DNA of 42,412 bases from a virus: positions 1 through 42,412 of the IMG/VR virus record IMGVR_UViG_3300042904_000070; one strand, given 5' to 3'. The translations under genes were made by a program, and so were the position numbers. The notes beneath the pieces were generated by a model. That model saw nothing but the letters and a program-made list of their open reading frames with translations. It did no database searches and was not told the DNA's origin. Position 1 is the stretch's first letter. Every line of letters begins with the position of its first letter. Shown in pieces: positions 3,689-29,787 of this stretch.

Positions 3689-3998
3689 CCGATCGTTCCC
3701 TAAGACCCGACAACGGGCCGCCCAGTCAGGCATGAAGCCGGCATAACATGGGGCGCATCGCGGTCATCGCGCAGTGGCATCCTTCCTGACGGGGTGCCAC
3801 ACCCTTTCTTCCTGCACTGCCTCTCATCAGAGGGGTGCCCGGCAACCGCCGGACCGACCTCCGCCCACGAGCAAGTACACCTTGGCCCTTCTGCCTGTCC
3901 CACCTGCGGGTGGGGCCTGAAGGACACCCCTGCGTGGCGGCGAATGGGGCTGACCGGTCGGACATCTGTCCAACCACAGTCTCACAGGACTTACTCCA
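3689..3998 (+). other. Non-coding leader of the capsid gene with hairpins
   Basis: 310 bases with no credible gene. Two hairpins stand out. One is 3774-3800, GTGGCATCC pairing with GGGTGCCAC, followed by ACCCTTTCTT. The other is 3898-3915, TCCCACC pairing with GGGTGGGG around a short loop. The first could act as a weak terminator or a processing site; the second could protect the capsid message. No copy of the phage promoter motif occurs here. Confidence 0.45.
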
Positions 3999-17554: not shown

Positions 17555-18110
17555 GTACTGCCGGGGGGTTACCTCTCGTAGTAGCGTTAGGTTTCCATCC
17601 AGCCTCCTCCATGCCCTTAGTGTGTCCCTCCTGGCTCCCCACCCTCTACTGATCCCCCTCCTCAGATACCCTCCTCCCCTGGTCTCCCCTCGGGGCTCCG
17701 CCCCTCAGGTCGCCCAGGGGGCCAAGCCGGAATGATTTGGGTCGCTCACCCGAGTGGGCATCCGCAAGGGCATCGCCGCCGATTTCCCCCCTTGGGGTCG
17801 GCCACCCGCGCACGCGAGGAAAACCGCGCCTGGCACCCGCACGCGCGCACCGCACGCAACACGCCACGCAACGCGGTGGGCTGGAACCCGCGGAAAGCCT
17901 AGGGTTCCAACAGACTTGAGATCTGCCGGCACCGCACGCGACCACGCCCGCACGCCACGCCTGCACGCCTGCGCACGGTACACCGCACGCGCAAGGCTGG
18001 CACGCCAACGCTTGATCCCGTGTATCTGTCTCGCCAGCCCAACGTTGCCACCCAACGTGGCCACCCGATGGCAAGCCGCACGCCACCCACGCCCGCGCAC
18101 GCGAGGCCGG

Positions 18111-24669: not shown

Positions 24670-24862
24670 CGCACCCTCTCAGAACTGCACAACGAATGGG
24701 CATATGAAGCTCGCTGGTTGAATTGAAGGCACCAAAGGGGACGGCCGGGAACGATAAGGCGAGATCACGTAGCGTGCCTCTGTGCAAGAGTTCCCTCTTG
24801 CCAACCGATGCCTGGGCACCTACGTGACCATCGGACAAACCACCAGCCCGGAGGCGATTACG
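24670..24862 (+). promoter_or_regulatory. Intergenic region ahead of the lysogeny regulator
   Basis: 193 bases, lower in GC than its neighbours (CATATGAAGC, TTGAATTGAAGG). It holds a small inverted repeat, CACG-TAG-CGTG (24766-24776). A promoter and operator for the regulator-integrase operon are expected here, but I cannot point to a convincing -35/-10 pair. Confidence 0.3.
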
Positions 24863-25210
24863 GTGGCACGGACCAACGGTACGCAACCACTCTGGAACCT
24901 GTTCCAGGCTGTCGAGGAGTTCAGGAAGCTCGACCAAGAGTTGCCGACGCAGACCGCGAACACCTTCCTCTACATCTGCGTGCATGAGGGCTGCACGATG
25001 AAGGACATAGCCGATGCCCTCGGCGTGGCTCAGTCGACCATGAGCCGGAACGTCTCGGCGCTGAGCAAGATCCACCGGCTGCGCAAGCCGGGGCTCGACC
25101 TGGTGAAGGCTACCGAAGACCCCTATGAGCGGCGTCGCAAGATCGTGACGTTGACGCCCAAGGGCAGGCAACTCAAAGAGCGCCTGCTGGCGCTCGCAAA
25201 TGGGAAGTGA
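24863..25210 (+). CDS. MarR-like winged-helix transcriptional regulator
   Basis: 115 residues from a GTG with GGAGG eight bases upstream. An in-frame GTG 27 codons earlier has no ribosome site. Residues about 31-70 form helix-turn-helix elements (TFLYICVHEGCTMKDIADAL, GVAQSTMSRNVSALSK). A wing follows (KIVTLTPKGRQLKERLLAL), the hallmark of MarR regulators. It is the first gene of the unit that carries the integrase, so it is the natural candidate for control of lysogeny. No CI- or Cro-type repressor is visible elsewhere. Its ligand and operator are unknown. Confidence 0.8.
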   Translation: MARTNGTQPLWNLFQAVEEFRKLDQELPTQTANTFLYICVHEGCTMKDIADALGVAQSTMSRNVSALSKIHRLRKPGLDLVKATEDPYERRRKIVTLTPKGRQLKERLLALANGK

Positions 25211-25213
25211 CCG

Positions 25214-25633
25214 ATGTTCACCTGGTACAAGGAGTTCCGCAAGCTCGGCGCCGTCTTCGCCGAGTACCCCACTGAGCCGGGGCGGCGGTTCGTCGAGGCC
25301 TACAGGGAGAACGGCGAGCTGTTCCTGTGGGTAGGTCGCCTGCACCTGATCGCCACCCACGCCAAGCGCCTCGCTCAGAACGGCGTCAACTCCGCCATCG
25401 TGTTCAGCGTGACCTGGTTCGAGGGGATGGTGACCCTGCTCCCCACCGTCAAGAGGGCAGCCGCCGCCGCCGCGATGGTGGCCACCGCCGCAACCACCAT
25501 GGAGCCGGCCATCTCCGTCGAGGCCGCGCCCGTCACGATCCAGATCGAGGAGACCACCGCATGGCTGTCGTCGCCGGCATCCGACTTCCCCGAGGCATTC
25601 GTGCCCGAGGCGACAGCTTCCTCGTCTCGGTAG
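25214..25633 (+). CDS. Unrecognised protein upstream of and overlapping the integrase
   Basis: 139 residues starting MFTWYKEFRKLGAVFAEYPT. A globular-looking N-terminal ~75 residues (RFVEAYRENGELFLWVGRLH) are followed by an Ala-rich hydrophobic stretch, VKRAAAAAAMVATAATT, and a Ser/Glu/Pro tail. It starts three bases after the regulator stop. Its last 73 bases overlap the integrase start in another frame. It could be an excisionase or regulatory partner by position only; no HTH is visible. Confidence 0.6.
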   Translation: MFTWYKEFRKLGAVFAEYPTEPGRRFVEAYRENGELFLWVGRLHLIATHAKRLAQNGVNSAIVFSVTWFEGMVTLLPTVKRAAAAAAMVATAATTMEPAISVEAAPVTIQIEETTAWLSSPASDFPEAFVPEATASSSR

Positions 25634-26583
25634 GAGCCGGACCCACCCGCCAGACGGCCACCTGCCACTCGCTCGAAGAGGCCCTCGCGAAGCAGCGGGA
25701 GCTGAAGGCAGGGGAGCCTTCGGCCCCCGCCGCCGAGGTCTGGACCCTCCAGCGGGCGCTCGACACCACCGTGCGGGTGGCCTGGGCTGACACCCGAGGG
25801 GAGCACACCGCCCAGGTCAACGCGCAGTCGGCGCTCGACCACTTCGGCCCGGAGACCACGCTCGATCGCATCACGACCGACGCGCTCGACGAGTACGTGC
25901 AGGCGCTCAAGGACGAGGGGCTGGCCAACGGCACCATCAACCGGAAGCTCGCGGCCCTGTCCAAGGTTCTGACCGTGGCCGTCGACCGCCGGGGCCTGGC
26001 CTTCAAGCCGAAGCTGCCACGCCTGCGGGAAGGGGTCGGCCGCATCCGCTACCTGACGGCGGACGAGGAGCGCGTCCTGCTGGGGCTGCTCGGGCAGTGG
26101 TCCATGCCGGATCACGTCGATGCCATCACCGTGCTGGTCGACACCGGGCTCCGGGTCGGCGAGCTGTTCCGCCTCACCGCACGTGACGTCGACCAGAGGC
26201 AGCGCCTGCTCCACGTGTGGGAGAACAAGGCCGACCACCCTCGCTCGGTGCCGCTGACCAAGCGCGCCTACGAGGTGATCAAGCGGCGCATGCACGGCGC
26301 TGCCTACGGTGGTCCCGACCTGTTCCCCTACAACCACGACTGGCTGCGCCGCCCCTGGGATCGAGCCAAGGTCACCATGGGGCTCGGCGACGACAAGCAG
26401 TTCGTGCCTCACACCCTGCGCCACACCTGCGCCAGCCGCCTGGTCCAGCGCAGCGTGCCGCTGAAGGTGGTCCAGGAGTGGATGGGCCACAAGACGATCC
26501 AGGTCACCATGCGCTACGCGCACCTGGCCCCGGCCAACCTGCTGGCCGCCGTCCAGGCCCTCGAAGGAGACGACGACCGATGA
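25561..26583 (+). CDS. int: Tyrosine-recombinase integrase
   Basis: 340 residues from the ATG at 25561 with GGAG upstream; the frame is open further 5' but that part has shadow-type composition. The N-terminal core-binding domain (about 60-145) includes TTDALDEYVQALKDEGLANG. Catalytic residues are visible: Arg198 in DTGLRVGELFRL, the beta-hairpin HPRSVPLTK, His284-x-x-Arg287 in HTLRHTCASRL, His310 in WMGHKTIQ and Tyr319 in MRYAHLAP. It catalyses site-specific integration and, with help, excision. The probable attP, a tRNA-Leu with flanking repeats, lies about 0.4 kb downstream. Confidence 0.95.
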   Translation: MAVVAGIRLPRGIRARGDSFLVSVGAGPTRQTATCHSLEEALAKQRELKAGEPSAPAAEVWTLQRALDTTVRVAWADTRGEHTAQVNAQSALDHFGPETTLDRITTDALDEYVQALKDEGLANGTINRKLAALSKVLTVAVDRRGLAFKPKLPRLREGVGRIRYLTADEERVLLGLLGQWSMPDHVDAITVLVDTGLRVGELFRLTARDVDQRQRLLHVWENKADHPRSVPLTKRAYEVIKRRMHGAAYGGPDLFPYNHDWLRRPWDRAKVTMGLGDDKQFVPHTLRHTCASRLVQRSVPLKVVQEWMGHKTIQVTMRYAHLAPANLLAAVQALEGDDDR

Positions 26584-26726
26584 ACACCACCACCATGACC
26601 CCCGTGCGTCTGCGTGAACTCGCCGATGCCCTCGACACCCTCGCCTCCGTGCTCGGCCAGACGGTCGAGTTGGTCCTGGAGGGCGATATGTCCGTCGTCA
26701 TCACGACGCCGGACGGCACCGCCTGA
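26580..26726 (+). CDS. Small protein after integrase
   Basis: 48 residues starting MNTTTMTPVRLRELADALDT. It has a helix followed by the strand-like VELVLEGDMSVVITTPDG. The start overlaps the integrase stop (ATGA), implying coupled translation. A small excisionase/directionality factor is conceivable by position, but no HTH pattern is visible. Confidence 0.6.
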   Translation: MNTTTMTPVRLRELADALDTLASVLGQTVELVLEGDMSVVITTPDGTA

Positions 26727-26773
26727 AGGGATGGCACCTGGTTCGACGACCGGACCGGATGGGCGGAGGGAGC

Positions 26774-26932
26774 ATGAACATCGCTGAGCTGATCGGCAAC
26801 GTCGTGATCGTGGTGGCCTTCCTGATCCTGATCGGCAAGGTCGTCGATGGGATCGACCACTGGTTCCAGATGCGTCGCCTAGACCGCATCCTCCGGGAGT
26901 GCGGCAAGGAGCCACCCCGCGAACAGACTTGA
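26774..26932 (+). CDS. Small single-span membrane protein
   Basis: 52 residues starting MNIAELIGNVVIVVAFLILI. One transmembrane segment (about residues 4-21) is followed by a charged cytoplasmic tail, HWFQMRRLDRILRECGKEPP. GGAGGG lies just upstream. It is the last gene before attP, so it might be a lysogeny-associated or superinfection-exclusion membrane protein. That is inference from size and place. Confidence 0.6.
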   Translation: MNIAELIGNVVIVVAFLILIGKVVDGIDHWFQMRRLDRILRECGKEPPREQT

Positions 26933-26951
26933 TCTGCTGCCCCGCCGTGGC

Positions 26952-27268
26952 ATGTTGCGTGTTGCGTCGATGTTGCGTTTGATGCGTGATGTTCCCCTAA
27001 TGTTGCCATGCCGGGGTGGCGGAATTGGCAGACGCGGCGGCCTCAAAAGCCGTTGTCCTTCAAGGACATGCGGGTTCGACCCCCGCCCCCGGCACCACCG
27101 GCACGACAGTCTCAAAATCTACCGCACCCTCCTACGCACCCCTCCAACTGATCCTCTAAGCTAGGCTTTCTGCCGGCTTCAGCCGGTGCGTACAGCTGCG
27201 CCCTGTTCCTATGCACGTTGCCAACAGACTGCACGGGTGGATCGCCCGTGTTGCGTATTTGTTGCGCG
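26952..27268 (+). other. attP: Probable attP: tRNA-Leu core flanked by TGTTGCGT arm sites
   Basis: Direct repeats TGTTGCGT lie at 26953, 26960 and 26971, with a degenerate TGATGCGT at 26980, left of the tRNA. Others lie at 27249 and, as TGTTGCGC, at 27260 on the right. All have the same orientation. Between them is a complete tRNA-Leu gene, the likely core identical to the host tRNA. A core bracketed by repeated arm-type sites near an integrase gene is the lambda-type attP plan; T7-like phages of Pelagibacter also integrate at tRNA-Leu. Confidence 0.75.
27010..27097 (+). tRNA. tRNA-Leu(CAA) with encoded CCA
   Basis: The full cloverleaf can be folded. The acceptor GCCGGGG (27010-27016) pairs with CCCCGGC (27087-27093). 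The D region contains GGAATTGGCAGA. The anticodon stem GCGGC/GCCGT (27037-27041/27049-27053) has loop CTCAAAA with anticodon CAA (27044-27046). A long variable arm, typical of Leu, follows, then the T arm GCGGG-TTCGACC-CCCGC. Discriminator A and CCA are encoded at 27094-27097. All stems are intact, so it may be functional and restore the host gene after integration. Confidence 0.95.
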
Positions 27269-27300
27269 TTCCCCTTCCGTTCCAACCATCGAGAGGCGCC

Positions 27301-29787
27301 ATGAACGACGACCTGATGCAGCGCCAAGCCGAGCTTGAGGCGGAGATGCAGGGTCTCGGGACCGATCAGTTCCGAGCCCGCCTCGCCCGAGCCCGAGACA
27401 CCCACGAGGAGAGCACCACCCCCTACGGTATCGAGATGGTCAGCCGGGCGATCGAGCCCTTGGCCAAGGCCATCGAGGCGTTCATCGAGAAGGCCATGGC
27501 TGGTGGCCGAGGCCGCCGGCACAGCGCCGTCAAGCCGCTGTCCCTGATCGACCAGCAAGTGGCCGCCTTCATCATCATGAAGGTGGTCCTCGACGGCATC
27601 ACCCGGACGCAGCCAGTGACCAAGGTCGCCATGCAGATCGGCGCCCAGCTGGACAACGAGCTGCACTACCAGGCCTTCGAGCAGCAGAAGCCGAAGCTCT
27701 ACGGCAAGGTTGCCGAGAGCGTCCGCCGTGCCTCGCACCGGGGCTACCGCGAGAAGGTCATGACCTACGCCGCCAACAAGTACGGCGCCGAGTACGCCTG
27801 CATGTCGCAGAAGGAGAGGCTGCACCTGGGCATGGCCTGCCTCGACCTGATGATCGAGGTGACCGGCTTCGCCAAGATCGAGACTACTCAGCTGCGGCGG
27901 GAGGTCAGATCGCTGCTGATCCCCACTGAGAAGGTCCTCGCCTGGATCAACTCGACCGTTTCCCGGTGCGAGCTGCTATCGCCGATGCTCCTGCCGATGC
28001 TGGTCGAGCCGAAGCCGTGGACCAGCCCAACTGATGGTGGCTACTACTCTCAGTTCGCGCGCCGTCACTTCGTCAAGACCTCGGCCACGAACCTGAAGCC
28101 GGTCCGCGAGCGGTGGGACGACATGGCCACCGTGCGTGAGGCCATCGAGCGCATTGACCGGACCGGCTGGCGCATCCGACAGGACGTTCTGGCGGTTGCC
28201 CACTGGTACTGGGACGCCGGCATCACGGTTGGCAAGCTCCCTCCTCGGGAGGATGTGGACCTCCCTCCATGCCCTGTCTGCGGGCAGAAGCCGGAGGGGG
28301 ACCACGAGCATCTCCGGGACGAGGAGATGAAGAAGCTCTGGAAGCGGGATGCCGCTCGCATCCACGGCTACAACGCCAAGCTCCGATCCAAGCGCCTCCA
28401 GGCGGGGAAGATCCTCTGGCTGGCCGACAAGTTCAAGGACGAGCCGGCGATCTACTTCCCGCACCAGCTCGACTTCCGCGGGCGGGTGTACCCGATGCCC
28501 CTGTTCCTGACCACGCAGGGCAACGACCTGGCCAAGGGACTGCTGACCTTCGCCAAGGGCAAGCCGATCAACGACACCGTCGCCGCGGGCTGGCTCATGA
28601 TCCACGGCGCCGGCGTCTTCGGCTACGACAAGGTGAGCCTGGACGGGCGCATCGCCTGGGTGCAGGAGAACGAGCAGCGCATCCTCGCCAGCGCCGCCGA
28701 CCCGCTCGGCCAGCGGTGGTGGACCGAGGCCGACAAGCCGTGGCAGTTCCTCGCCTTCTGCTTCGAGTGGGCCGCCTTCCAGGCCCACGGCTACGGCTTC
28801 GTCTCGACCCTGCCTGTGTCCCTGGATGGCAGCTGCAACGGCCTCCAGCACTACTCCGCCATGCTGCGCGACCCGAAGGGTGGCAAGGCGGTGAACCTGG
28901 TGCCATCCAACAAGCCGGCCGACATCTACCAGGAGGTGGCCAACGTCACGTTGCATAAGCTGCGCCGTATCGTATCCACCCCGGCAACCAACGACGAGGA
29001 GGAAGCCGAGAGGGTGCTGGCTCAGCAGTGGCTGGACTTCGGGGTGACCCGCAAGACCACCAAGCGGCCGGTCATGGTGGTGCCCTACAGCGGCACGCGC
29101 CATTCCTGCCGGCAGTACATCCAGGCCCACATCGAGGAGGAAGTGGAGGCGCGCAAGCTGCGCGACCCGAGCTACGCCTCGCCGTGGTCGATGGGTGAGC
29201 TGATGGCGCCGTCCCTGTTCCTGACGCGCCTCGTCTGGACCGCGATCGGGGAGGTGGTCGTGGCTGCCCGCAAGGCCATGGACTGGCTCAAGAAGGTTGC
29301 GGCCGCAACGTCCAAGGCGCAGCTGCCACTCCAGTGGGTGACCCCGGTGGGGTTCCCCGTCCACCAGGCCTACTACGACACCACGTCGCGCCGTGTGGAG
29401 ACGAGGCTGGGTGACAGCATCATGCGCCCACGCCTCCAGGAGTACCTGCCCACCATCAACGCTCGGGAGCAGGGCAACGCCTTCGCCCCCAACTTCGTCC
29501 ACTCCCTCGACGCCGCCGCCCTCCAGCTCTCGGTCTGCTACGCGGCGGACAACGGGATCGAGGAGTTCGCCATGGTCCACGACAGCTACGGGTGCCCGGC
29601 GGCCGACGCCGAGATGCTCGGGCAGTGCCTGCGCCATGCGTTCGTCGACCTCTACCAGGAGCACGACGTCCTGGCCGACCTCAAGGCCACCATCGAGGCG
29701 GCTCTCGGTTCCCCCCTCCCACCGCAGCCGGCGATGGGCAGCCTGGACCTGGAGCTGATCAAGCAGTCCGACTTCTTTTTCGCCTGA
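27301..29787 (+). CDS. Single-subunit DNA-directed RNA polymerase (T7 gp1-like)
   Basis: 829 residues from the ATG at 27301 with GAGAGG upstream (T7: 883). Motifs in order: DFRGRVYPMP (about 391), DGSCNGLQHYSAMLRD with metal ligand Asp509, KRPVMVVPYSG with Lys588 and Tyr596, APNFVHSLDAAALQ, HDSYG with Asp761, and the C-terminal SDFFFA. A CPVCGQKPEGDHEH insert near residue 325 could bind zinc. It would read the three AATACCTTCCCACTTAA-type promoters. The gene lies downstream of attP and upstream of the replication promoter. Its own transcription before integration must come from the early region. Confidence 0.97.
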   Translation: MNDDLMQRQAELEAEMQGLGTDQFRARLARARDTHEESTTPYGIEMVSRAIEPLAKAIEAFIEKAMAGGRGRRHSAVKPLSLIDQQVAAFIIMKVVLDGITRTQPVTKVAMQIGAQLDNELHYQAFEQQKPKLYGKVAESVRRASHRGYREKVMTYAANKYGAEYACMSQKERLHLGMACLDLMIEVTGFAKIETTQLRREVRSLLIPTEKVLAWINSTVSRCELLSPMLLPMLVEPKPWTSPTDGGYYSQFARRHFVKTSATNLKPVRERWDDMATVREAIERIDRTGWRIRQDVLAVAHWYWDAGITVGKLPPREDVDLPPCPVCGQKPEGDHEHLRDEEMKKLWKRDAARIHGYNAKLRSKRLQAGKILWLADKFKDEPAIYFPHQLDFRGRVYPMPLFLTTQGNDLAKGLLTFAKGKPINDTVAAGWLMIHGAGVFGYDKVSLDGRIAWVQENEQRILASAADPLGQRWWTEADKPWQFLAFCFEWAAFQAHGYGFVSTLPVSLDGSCNGLQHYSAMLRDPKGGKAVNLVPSNKPADIYQEVANVTLHKLRRIVSTPATNDEEEAERVLAQQWLDFGVTRKTTKRPVMVVPYSGTRHSCRQYIQAHIEEEVEARKLRDPSYASPWSMGELMAPSLFLTRLVWTAIGEVVVAARKAMDWLKKVAAATSKAQLPLQWVTPVGFPVHQAYYDTTSRRVETRLGDSIMRPRLQEYLPTINAREQGNAFAPNFVHSLDAAALQLSVCYAADNGIEEFAMVHDSYGCPAADAEMLGQCLRHAFVDLYQEHDVLADLKATIEAALGSPLPPQPAMGSLDLELIKQSDFFFA

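Follow-up and report, generated by a model that had tools for sequence, protein, structure and literature searches.

A probable attP with a nested tRNA-Leu(CAA) between putative integrase arm sites and core in a temperate T7-like phage

The region between the integrase and RNA polymerase genes of IMG/VR virus record IMGVR_UViG_3300042904_000070 is very probably the attP of a temperate T7-like phage. Here the whole stretch of DNA analysed, 42,412 nucleotides, is called the window. We consider it highly likely that this attP spans 26919-27275, that its core crosses over into a host tRNA-Leu(CAA) gene and that the complete tRNA-Leu(CAA) nested in it serves as a replacement. This tRNA most plausibly stands in for the host gene split by integration. 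The phage very probably belongs to those with tRNA-dependent lysogeny, which is known from actinophages and noted, in the available text of the literature compared, in T7-like rhizobial and SAR11 phages.

Gene order and features

PHROG and Pfam searches show a MarR-like gene, an integrase gene, a tRNA gene and a T7-type RNA polymerase gene in succession, an order that identifies the window as an Autographivirus in unintegrated order, with the integrase gene beside the polymerase gene. The traits of temperate T7-like phages with an integrase-polymerase arrangement (Autographiviridae) are present, since the polymerase is of the single-subunit type and both the MarR-like gene and the integrase lie upstream of it. 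The preliminary description had reported an intact tRNA-Leu(CAA) next to a tyrosine integrase, and both were recovered; the integrase ORF ends 427 bp before the tRNA and two small ORFs lie in the gap. The features are as follows.

24782-25210, plus strand: MarR-like transcriptional regulator, upstream of the integrase (PHROG 9665, E 3.9e-34; Pfam MarR_2, E 3.9e-6)
25561-26583, plus strand: tyrosine integrase (PHROG integrase, E 7.2e-54; PF00589, PF02899)
26919-26929, plus strand: flank repeat GCGAACAGACT, start of the conserved left block, where conservation among four phages begins
26953-26967, plus strand: putative left (P) arm sites 1 and 2, TGTTGCGTGTTGCGT (19 of 20 columns invariant at 26950-26969)
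26971-26978, plus strand: putative left (P) arm site 3, TGTTGCGT (repeat match)
26991 and 27268: further repeat GTTCCCCT
27001-27007, plus strand: fourth left copy, degenerate (TGTTGCC; relatives L002 and L003 have TGTTGCG at the equivalent position)
27010-27097, plus strand: complete tRNA-Leu(CAA), CCA encoded (ARAGORN; Rfam RF00005, 55.3 bits)
27104-27124, plus strand: proposed attP core, CGACAG-TCTCAAAAT-CTACCG, an imperfect inverted repeat with the anticodon-loop copy inside
27111-27119, plus strand: second anticodon-loop copy CTCAAAATC, likely crossover core, 14 bp past the tRNA end
27220-27230, plus strand: flank repeat GCCAACAGACT, partner of GCGAACAGACT (14 of 20 columns invariant at 27210-27229)
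27249-27256, plus strand: putative right (P') arm site 1, TGTTGCGT (repeat match)
27260-27267, plus strand: putative right (P') arm site 2, TGTTGCGC (18 of 20 columns invariant at 27250-27269)
27301-29787, plus strand: single-subunit (T7-like) RNA polymerase, first gene past attP (PHROG 414, E 6.6e-261)

Compared with phage records by BLASTN, the region gave matches confined to the tRNA, among the matches listed. The conserved blocks were also considered as phage promoters and rejected, as the window contains no other close copy of any of them. A conserved segment at 27133-27192, between the core and the right arms, contains an 8-bp inverted repeat, TACGCACC/GGTGCGTA, plus TAGGCTTTCTGCC; a stretch of the G359 prophage described below, CCTAGGCTTTCTGCCTGGGGTTTTT, is similar to it and has a terminator-like look.

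Conservation in close relatives

Three close relatives were found in IMG/VR, L002, L003 and L004, whose integrases are 88-93% identical to that of the window. All three have other genes inserted between integrase and tRNA, which indicates a conserved unit independent of its surroundings. In the alignment of the four phages, invariant columns rise at the left edge from 0 of 20 at 26890-26909 to 17-19 of 20 at 26930-26969, remain mostly high up to the right arms, with dips to 4 of 20 at 26990-27009 and 3 of 20 at 27190-27209, and drop at the right edge from 18 of 20 at 27250-27269 to 3 of 20 at 27290-27309. The tRNA body is 76-80% identical to its counterparts in the relatives, though arms and core are conserved.

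The interval between integrase and attP is a variable cargo spot beside attP. The cargo of L002 (7213-9941) and L004 (7068-10045) includes a C5 cytosine methylase and a Vsr nicking endonuclease, with a weak type II restriction-enzyme match in L002 as well, and that of L003 (7331-8710) a PIN-domain protein; the window has only small ORFs at that spot. A search by integrase for an integrated close relative reached at best about 42% identity in 385 genomes of the class of Xanthobacter, and the same search, run without a positive control, gave none above about 42% in 369 genomes of the class of Methylovorus.

Arm-type repeats

Exact copies of TGTTGCGT lie on the plus strand at 26953, 26960, 26971 and 27249, and TGTTGCGC lies at 27260, all at the positions given in the preliminary description. 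The 42 kb window holds five exact TGTTGCGT copies, the fifth at 17854 on the minus strand, where 0.85 are expected, and 0 of 100 shuffles reached five. The spaced pair TGTTGCG-N4-TGTTGCG occurs twice in the window (0.01 expected), once per side, at 26960-26977 and 27249-27266.

That description took the repeats for integrase arm-type sites, a claim that gains from the relatives. With respect to the core, TGTTGCG lies at -158/-151/-140 and +138/+149, and both repeats and offsets are kept in all three relatives with a like integrase; in a related Parvibaculum prophage, whose ends were mapped, arms of the TGTTGCGG type lie at -145/-133/-122 and +138/+149. When flanking direct repeats were scored with no preset motif, only 8 of 21 attPs had repeats equalled in at most 1 of 60 shuffles, and these eight include the window and its three relatives. 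The motif TGTKRC, picked after inspection of the same attP sequences, has 57 matches at -165 to -95 or +100 to +160 of 27 attPs, of which the window's clade supplies 23. Shuffles of the same zones gave a mean of 2.9 and a maximum of 9 in 500; the opposite strand holds 16 matches, and the host flanks of 11 prophages hold 2. At least one match is present in 17 of the 27 attPs and none in the other 10.

The repeats could instead be regulatory, serving either as operators for the MarR-like protein or as promoter elements ahead of the polymerase gene. The right pair is indeed about 40 bp before the polymerase start, and for temperate T7-like phages MarR sites close to the polymerase promoter have been suggested, as quoted in the available part of PMC10134795. 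However, among 10 phages the first right-hand arm is 121-159 bp from the core while the polymerase gene is 150-803 bp from it, and the SD of arm spacing is 10 bp relative to the core vs 190 bp relative to the polymerase start. Thus the repeats track the core rather than the polymerase gene, and this speaks against a main role as operators or promoter elements. Moreover, they are direct repeats whose left cluster lies beyond the tRNA, there is no TGTTGCG near marR, and a scan of 26560-27330 for promoters and terminators found none, including no sigma-70-like promoter. A regulatory origin of the repeats thus seems very improbable to us, a double role being possible. Judged by sequence, the TGTTGCG repeats behave as integrase arm-type sites, a supported reading under which the integrase would bind them.

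The integrase

The integrase has a predicted arm-binding-like N-terminal domain (residues 13-50), a SAM-like core-binding domain and a catalytic domain. Residues R198, K223, H284, R287, H310 and Y319, which we take to be the catalytic residues, are invariant or nearly so. In lambda-type integrases the arm-binding domain sits N-terminal to the core-binding domain, and in the AlphaFold2 model (mean pLDDT 86.9) a three-stranded sheet and a helix are predicted at residues 13-50, ahead of the core-binding domain. A Pfam search of the integrase gave no arm-domain match. Structural comparison of the model with lambda Int (1z1b) yielded Z 19.5 and rmsd 13.9 over 314 aligned residues, range 5-330; the structure-comparison rows are carried mainly by residues 57-338, so they are no proof of an arm-binding domain.

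The core

The proposed core is an imperfect inverted repeat around the 9-mer CTCAAAATC, and the core of L003 is a perfect one, CGACAG-CCTCAAAAT-CTGTCG. The 9-mer is single in the window; 12 of 100 whole-window shuffles hold it somewhere, and it appeared in 18 of 20,000 shuffles of the integrase-polymerase interval 26584-27300. The core shares only 7 nt (CTCAAAA) with the window's own tRNA, which 118 of 200 shuffles equal. We examined the 19 T7-like phages that have a tRNA-Leu near the integrase for a match to their own anticodon stem-loop outside the tRNA. It measures at least 8 nt in 16 of them and is shorter in the window (7), L111 (7) and L106 (6). By this match alone the window, whose tRNA stem differs, is not significant, and the case for its putative core is made by the 9-mer, its fixed place and its conservation.

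In most of those phages whose tRNA is downstream of the integrase, the match to the stem-loop begins about 9-25 bp past the tRNA end. In related prophages with the window's order, integrase - complete tRNA - polymerase, the mapped crossovers fall in a separate copy of the anticodon loop, 8-25 bp beyond the tRNA (Parvibaculum, Xanthobacter YC-JY1, Rhodopseudomonas and G359). By analogy, the crossover of the window phage is likely in the copy at 27111-27119 and not inside the tRNA. The preliminary description spoke of an attP built on a complete tRNA; that the region is an attP stands, but the tRNA does not appear to be its foundation, as its body varies and the crossover probably lies downstream.

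Integration of related prophages

A scan with an RNA polymerase profile led to 80 GTDB loci, and integrases were located for 45 of those genomes. We followed the 23 with the integrase about 30-43 kb from the polymerase gene on the same contig and strand, leaving the other 22 unmapped. In 20 related prophages the two genes are at opposite prophage ends, 37-43 kb apart on the same contig and strand. Since they are adjacent in the window, attP lies between them. Junctions were mapped by joining the flanks at each shared word of at least 7 bases and running ARAGORN on the joint.

In 11 of the 20 the joint restores a standard host tRNA-Leu cut in the anticodon loop, with a core of 8-17 bp. Eight of the split genes are TAA (Parvibaculum, Xanthobacter YC-JY1, two Rhizobiales, OTTO1, Reyranella, Hyphomicrobiales and Rhodopseudomonas, where two junctions were possible and the one giving a perfect anticodon stem was chosen) and three are TAG (Litchfieldella, R. 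mongolense and R. anhuiense). Together with G359, all 12 prophages that split a tRNA-Leu carry a complete phage tRNA-Leu of the same anticodon, which is the only complete tRNA-Leu near their junctions; in the 11 compared it is 65-84% identical to the split host gene. In six of the 20 a tRNA is rebuilt at one junction, tRNA-Leu in P. putida, Methylovorus, Rhodanobacter and Stenotrophomonas and tRNA-Cys in two Xanthobacter, and no tRNA-Leu or tRNA-Cys was found in the interiors of these six. The presence of a complete tRNA in 11 of 11 against 0 of 6 gives an exact p of 8e-5, or 3e-4 with near-duplicates collapsed, and the anticodon match alone 0.006, or 0.02, all ignoring kinship. Of three later prophages, one (Roseomonas) rebuilds tRNA-Ser(GCT), the seventh rebuilding case, with no extra tRNA gene at the edges, the part that was searched, and two gave no mapped junction. 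Altogether 5 of 24 examined prophages remained unmapped (Endozoicomonas, Inquilinus, Mucispirillum, Bradyrhizobium LTSP885 and Pannonibacter).

Some of these loci deserve a separate remark. The Endozoicomonas T7-like prophage (L179 / L062) has ends that share a 21-bp non-tRNA sequence, TGTGACGCTCTCCTGATCCCT, and a TGA in the integrase frame; it represents a different kind of attachment site. The two Xanthobacter loci (L190, L191) and Roseomonas (L341) show classic tRNA-rebuilding use of tRNA-Cys or tRNA-Ser. The Hyphomicrobiales replacement tRNA (L188, reverse complement, 360-436) is 77 nt long, with anticodon TAA and without the long variable arm.

As relatives split a host tRNA-Leu and carry a complete copy of the same anticodon, we interpret the window's tRNA as a replacement gene nested in attP. 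The same nesting recurs: left arms, tRNA and core are packed, one tRNA filling the space between arms and core, in the window's clade, G359 and several others, whereas LUZ100-type phages and the Rhizobium prophages have the tRNA upstream of the integrase instead.

A classic tRNA attP would have its crossover inside the complete tRNA at 27010-27097, attL and attR each regenerating a tRNA. Regeneration does occur among related T7-like prophages, with shared 3' halves of 55-60 bp in Pseudomonas putida HAI-2 and Methylovorus and 45 bp in Rhodanobacter, and T7-like cyanophages have 39 bp in common with the first half of tRNA-Leu (PMC8776855, in its available text). Yet prophages of the classic type lack a complete tRNA-Leu of their own, crossovers mapped in the window's gene order lie downstream of the tRNA, and the tRNA body is variable while core and arms are conserved. 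The exact 88-mer of the window's tRNA has 0 matches in GTDB contigs, where the host may simply be missing, a result that fits a replacement gene yet is also compatible with a classic site. We judge a classic site very unlikely.

There remains the view that the tRNA is unrelated to attP function, being a helper of lytic-phase translation or a leftover of imprecise excision. Many phages carry tRNAs, and imprecise excision has been proposed for the tRNA-Leu of LUZ100 (available part of PMC10134795). Against this, TTG makes up just 17 of 662 leucine codons (2.6%) in 13 phage ORFs, so that tRNA supply for lytic translation is no obvious need. Nor does it agree with an anticodon that equals that of the split gene in every splitting prophage despite the modest identity, with the absence of an extra tRNA, where searched, from prophages that regenerate one, or with the recurrent nested position. 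Its probability appears to us very small, and a replacement function is preferred.

The G359 prophage and the need for a phage tRNA

The G359 prophage surfaced after the model was built, when the window's integrase was searched against the 385 genomes (42% identical). On its integrase side follow the integrase, a phage tRNA-Leu(CAA), 8 bp, the core CAGACTCAAAATCTG and the 3' half of a host tRNA-Leu(CAA); the 5' half of this split gene is at the other end, beside the polymerase gene. Its arms, GGTGACG with at most one mismatch, are at -132/-120/-101 and +124/+139/+152. Sharing layout and anticodon with the window, G359 is the best evidence, by analogy, for how the window phage would behave.

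Host tRNA copy number was checked fully in G359 and Xanthobacter sp. YC-JY1, and via similarity hits in other hosts. G359 has each leucine isoacceptor once, and the only intact CAA gene seen is that of the prophage. In the complete chromosome of Xanthobacter YC-JY1, 44 tRNAs pass the cut-off, of which the long ones were read; the leucine set consists of CAA, TAG, GAG, CAG and a single intact TAA, located in the prophage. UUA is unreadable without a UAA tRNA, so this lysogen should depend on the phage gene. The argument is weaker for CAA, because UAA tRNAs can usually read UUG too.

Proposed mechanism and implications

We propose that the N-terminal domain of the integrase would bind the TGTTGCG arm sites on both sides, and its core-binding domain the CGACAG...CTACCG core sites. 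Strand exchange would take place between the anticodon-loop copy at 27111-27119 and the anticodon loop of a host tRNA-Leu(CAA), the host gene that the window phage presumably uses. Integration would part this gene into two halves about 42 kb apart, and no junction would regenerate a tRNA. The complete tRNA-Leu(CAA), situated between left arms and core, would end beside the integrase in the prophage and, if expressed and needed as we suppose, would supply the lost isoacceptor.

These steps predict, for the window phage, crossover bases, arm sites and a host gene, as well as clear plaques when the tRNA is missing. The mapped prophages explain complete tRNA-Leu genes beside T7-like integrases, which had previously been read as excision accidents, and suggest that tRNA-dependent lysogeny is frequent among temperate T7-like phages of Proteobacteria. 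They also call for caution in host guessing, as an integrase-adjacent tRNA may be neither the crossover site nor a match to the host gene. More tentatively, and less probably than not in our view, attP in this branch of temperate T7-like phages may be a self-contained poison-antidote module. It would let a phage keep its integrase and arms while moving to another leucine isoacceptor or another host, and the window, with its differing tRNA body beside constant arms and core, would be a swap caught in the act. If true, the core (lesion) and a tRNA of matching anticodon (remedy) would be joined and exchangeable as one cassette.

Comparison with known systems

tRNA-dependent lysogeny was named for actinobacteriophages such as Fionnbharth and Gaia in 2024 (Guerrero-Bustamante & Hatfull, PMC10865867), a paper that in its available text left the prevalence outside actinophages open. 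According to the same text, those phages have a tyrosine integrase, a core of 8-17 bp over a tRNA gene that is not rebuilt, a phage tRNA of the same isotype and putative arm sites that flank the core in pairs; Gaia uses tRNA-Leu-CAA, the isoacceptor carried by the window, with an 8-bp core. The window shares the tyrosine integrase and a short proposed core flanked on either side by putative arm-type sites, but it belongs to a T7-like podovirus and its probable replacement tRNA is inside attP, between left arms and core.

Among T7-like phages, the temperate Autographiviridae of the Rhizobium vTRX32-1 / RHEph01 group (PMC8631192, available sections) also have the integrase next to the polymerase, a phage-borne replacement tRNA-Leu and a 12-bp core, CAGATTTAGGTT, in tRNA-Leu; no arm sites are described in those sections. 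We found the same 12-bp core in the R. anhuiense prophage. Unlike the window, the two Rhizobium prophages mapped here use TAG, with the tRNA upstream of the integrase, on the minus strand and outside attP. HTVC019P-like pelagiphages and uv-Fonsiphage-EPL are likewise T7-like, have their own tRNA-Leu and integrate in tRNA-Leu(TAG), as stated in the available part of PMC6811365. They differ from the window in using TAG, HTVC200P has a tRNA-Leu(TAA) upstream of the integrase, and the integrase is only 36% identical.

LUZ100 has a MarR - tRNA-Leu - integrase - polymerase module and a predicted anticodon-loop copy after the integrase, but its anticodon is TAA, its tRNA lies upstream of the integrase and the published explanation is imprecise excision (PMC10134795, available part). 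In our set a tRNA-Leu(TAA) stands upstream of the integrase in L012 (LUZ100) at 3917, L014 (uncultured phage S28-C10) at 4975 and L015 (HTVC200P) at 3966. In all three the integrase is followed by a copy, 8-11 nt long, of that tRNA's anticodon loop, from which an integration core in a host tRNA-Leu(TAA) is predicted. In cyanophages P-SSP7 and S-TIP37 the integrase is followed by an attP matching tRNA-Leu, as in the window, and integration was shown by PCR and depends on integrase and attP; the match, unlike ours, is 39 bp long and covers the first tRNA half, and no complete replacement tRNA is mentioned (PMC8776855, available text). Related literature includes PMC3861242 and PMC9004378, likewise available in part. 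Within the text available of the literature compared, none of the T7-like cases uses CAA and the nested tRNA layout was not found described, so that the CAA isoacceptor for T7-like phages and the compact nested layout are, on this comparison, what the window adds to the known systems.
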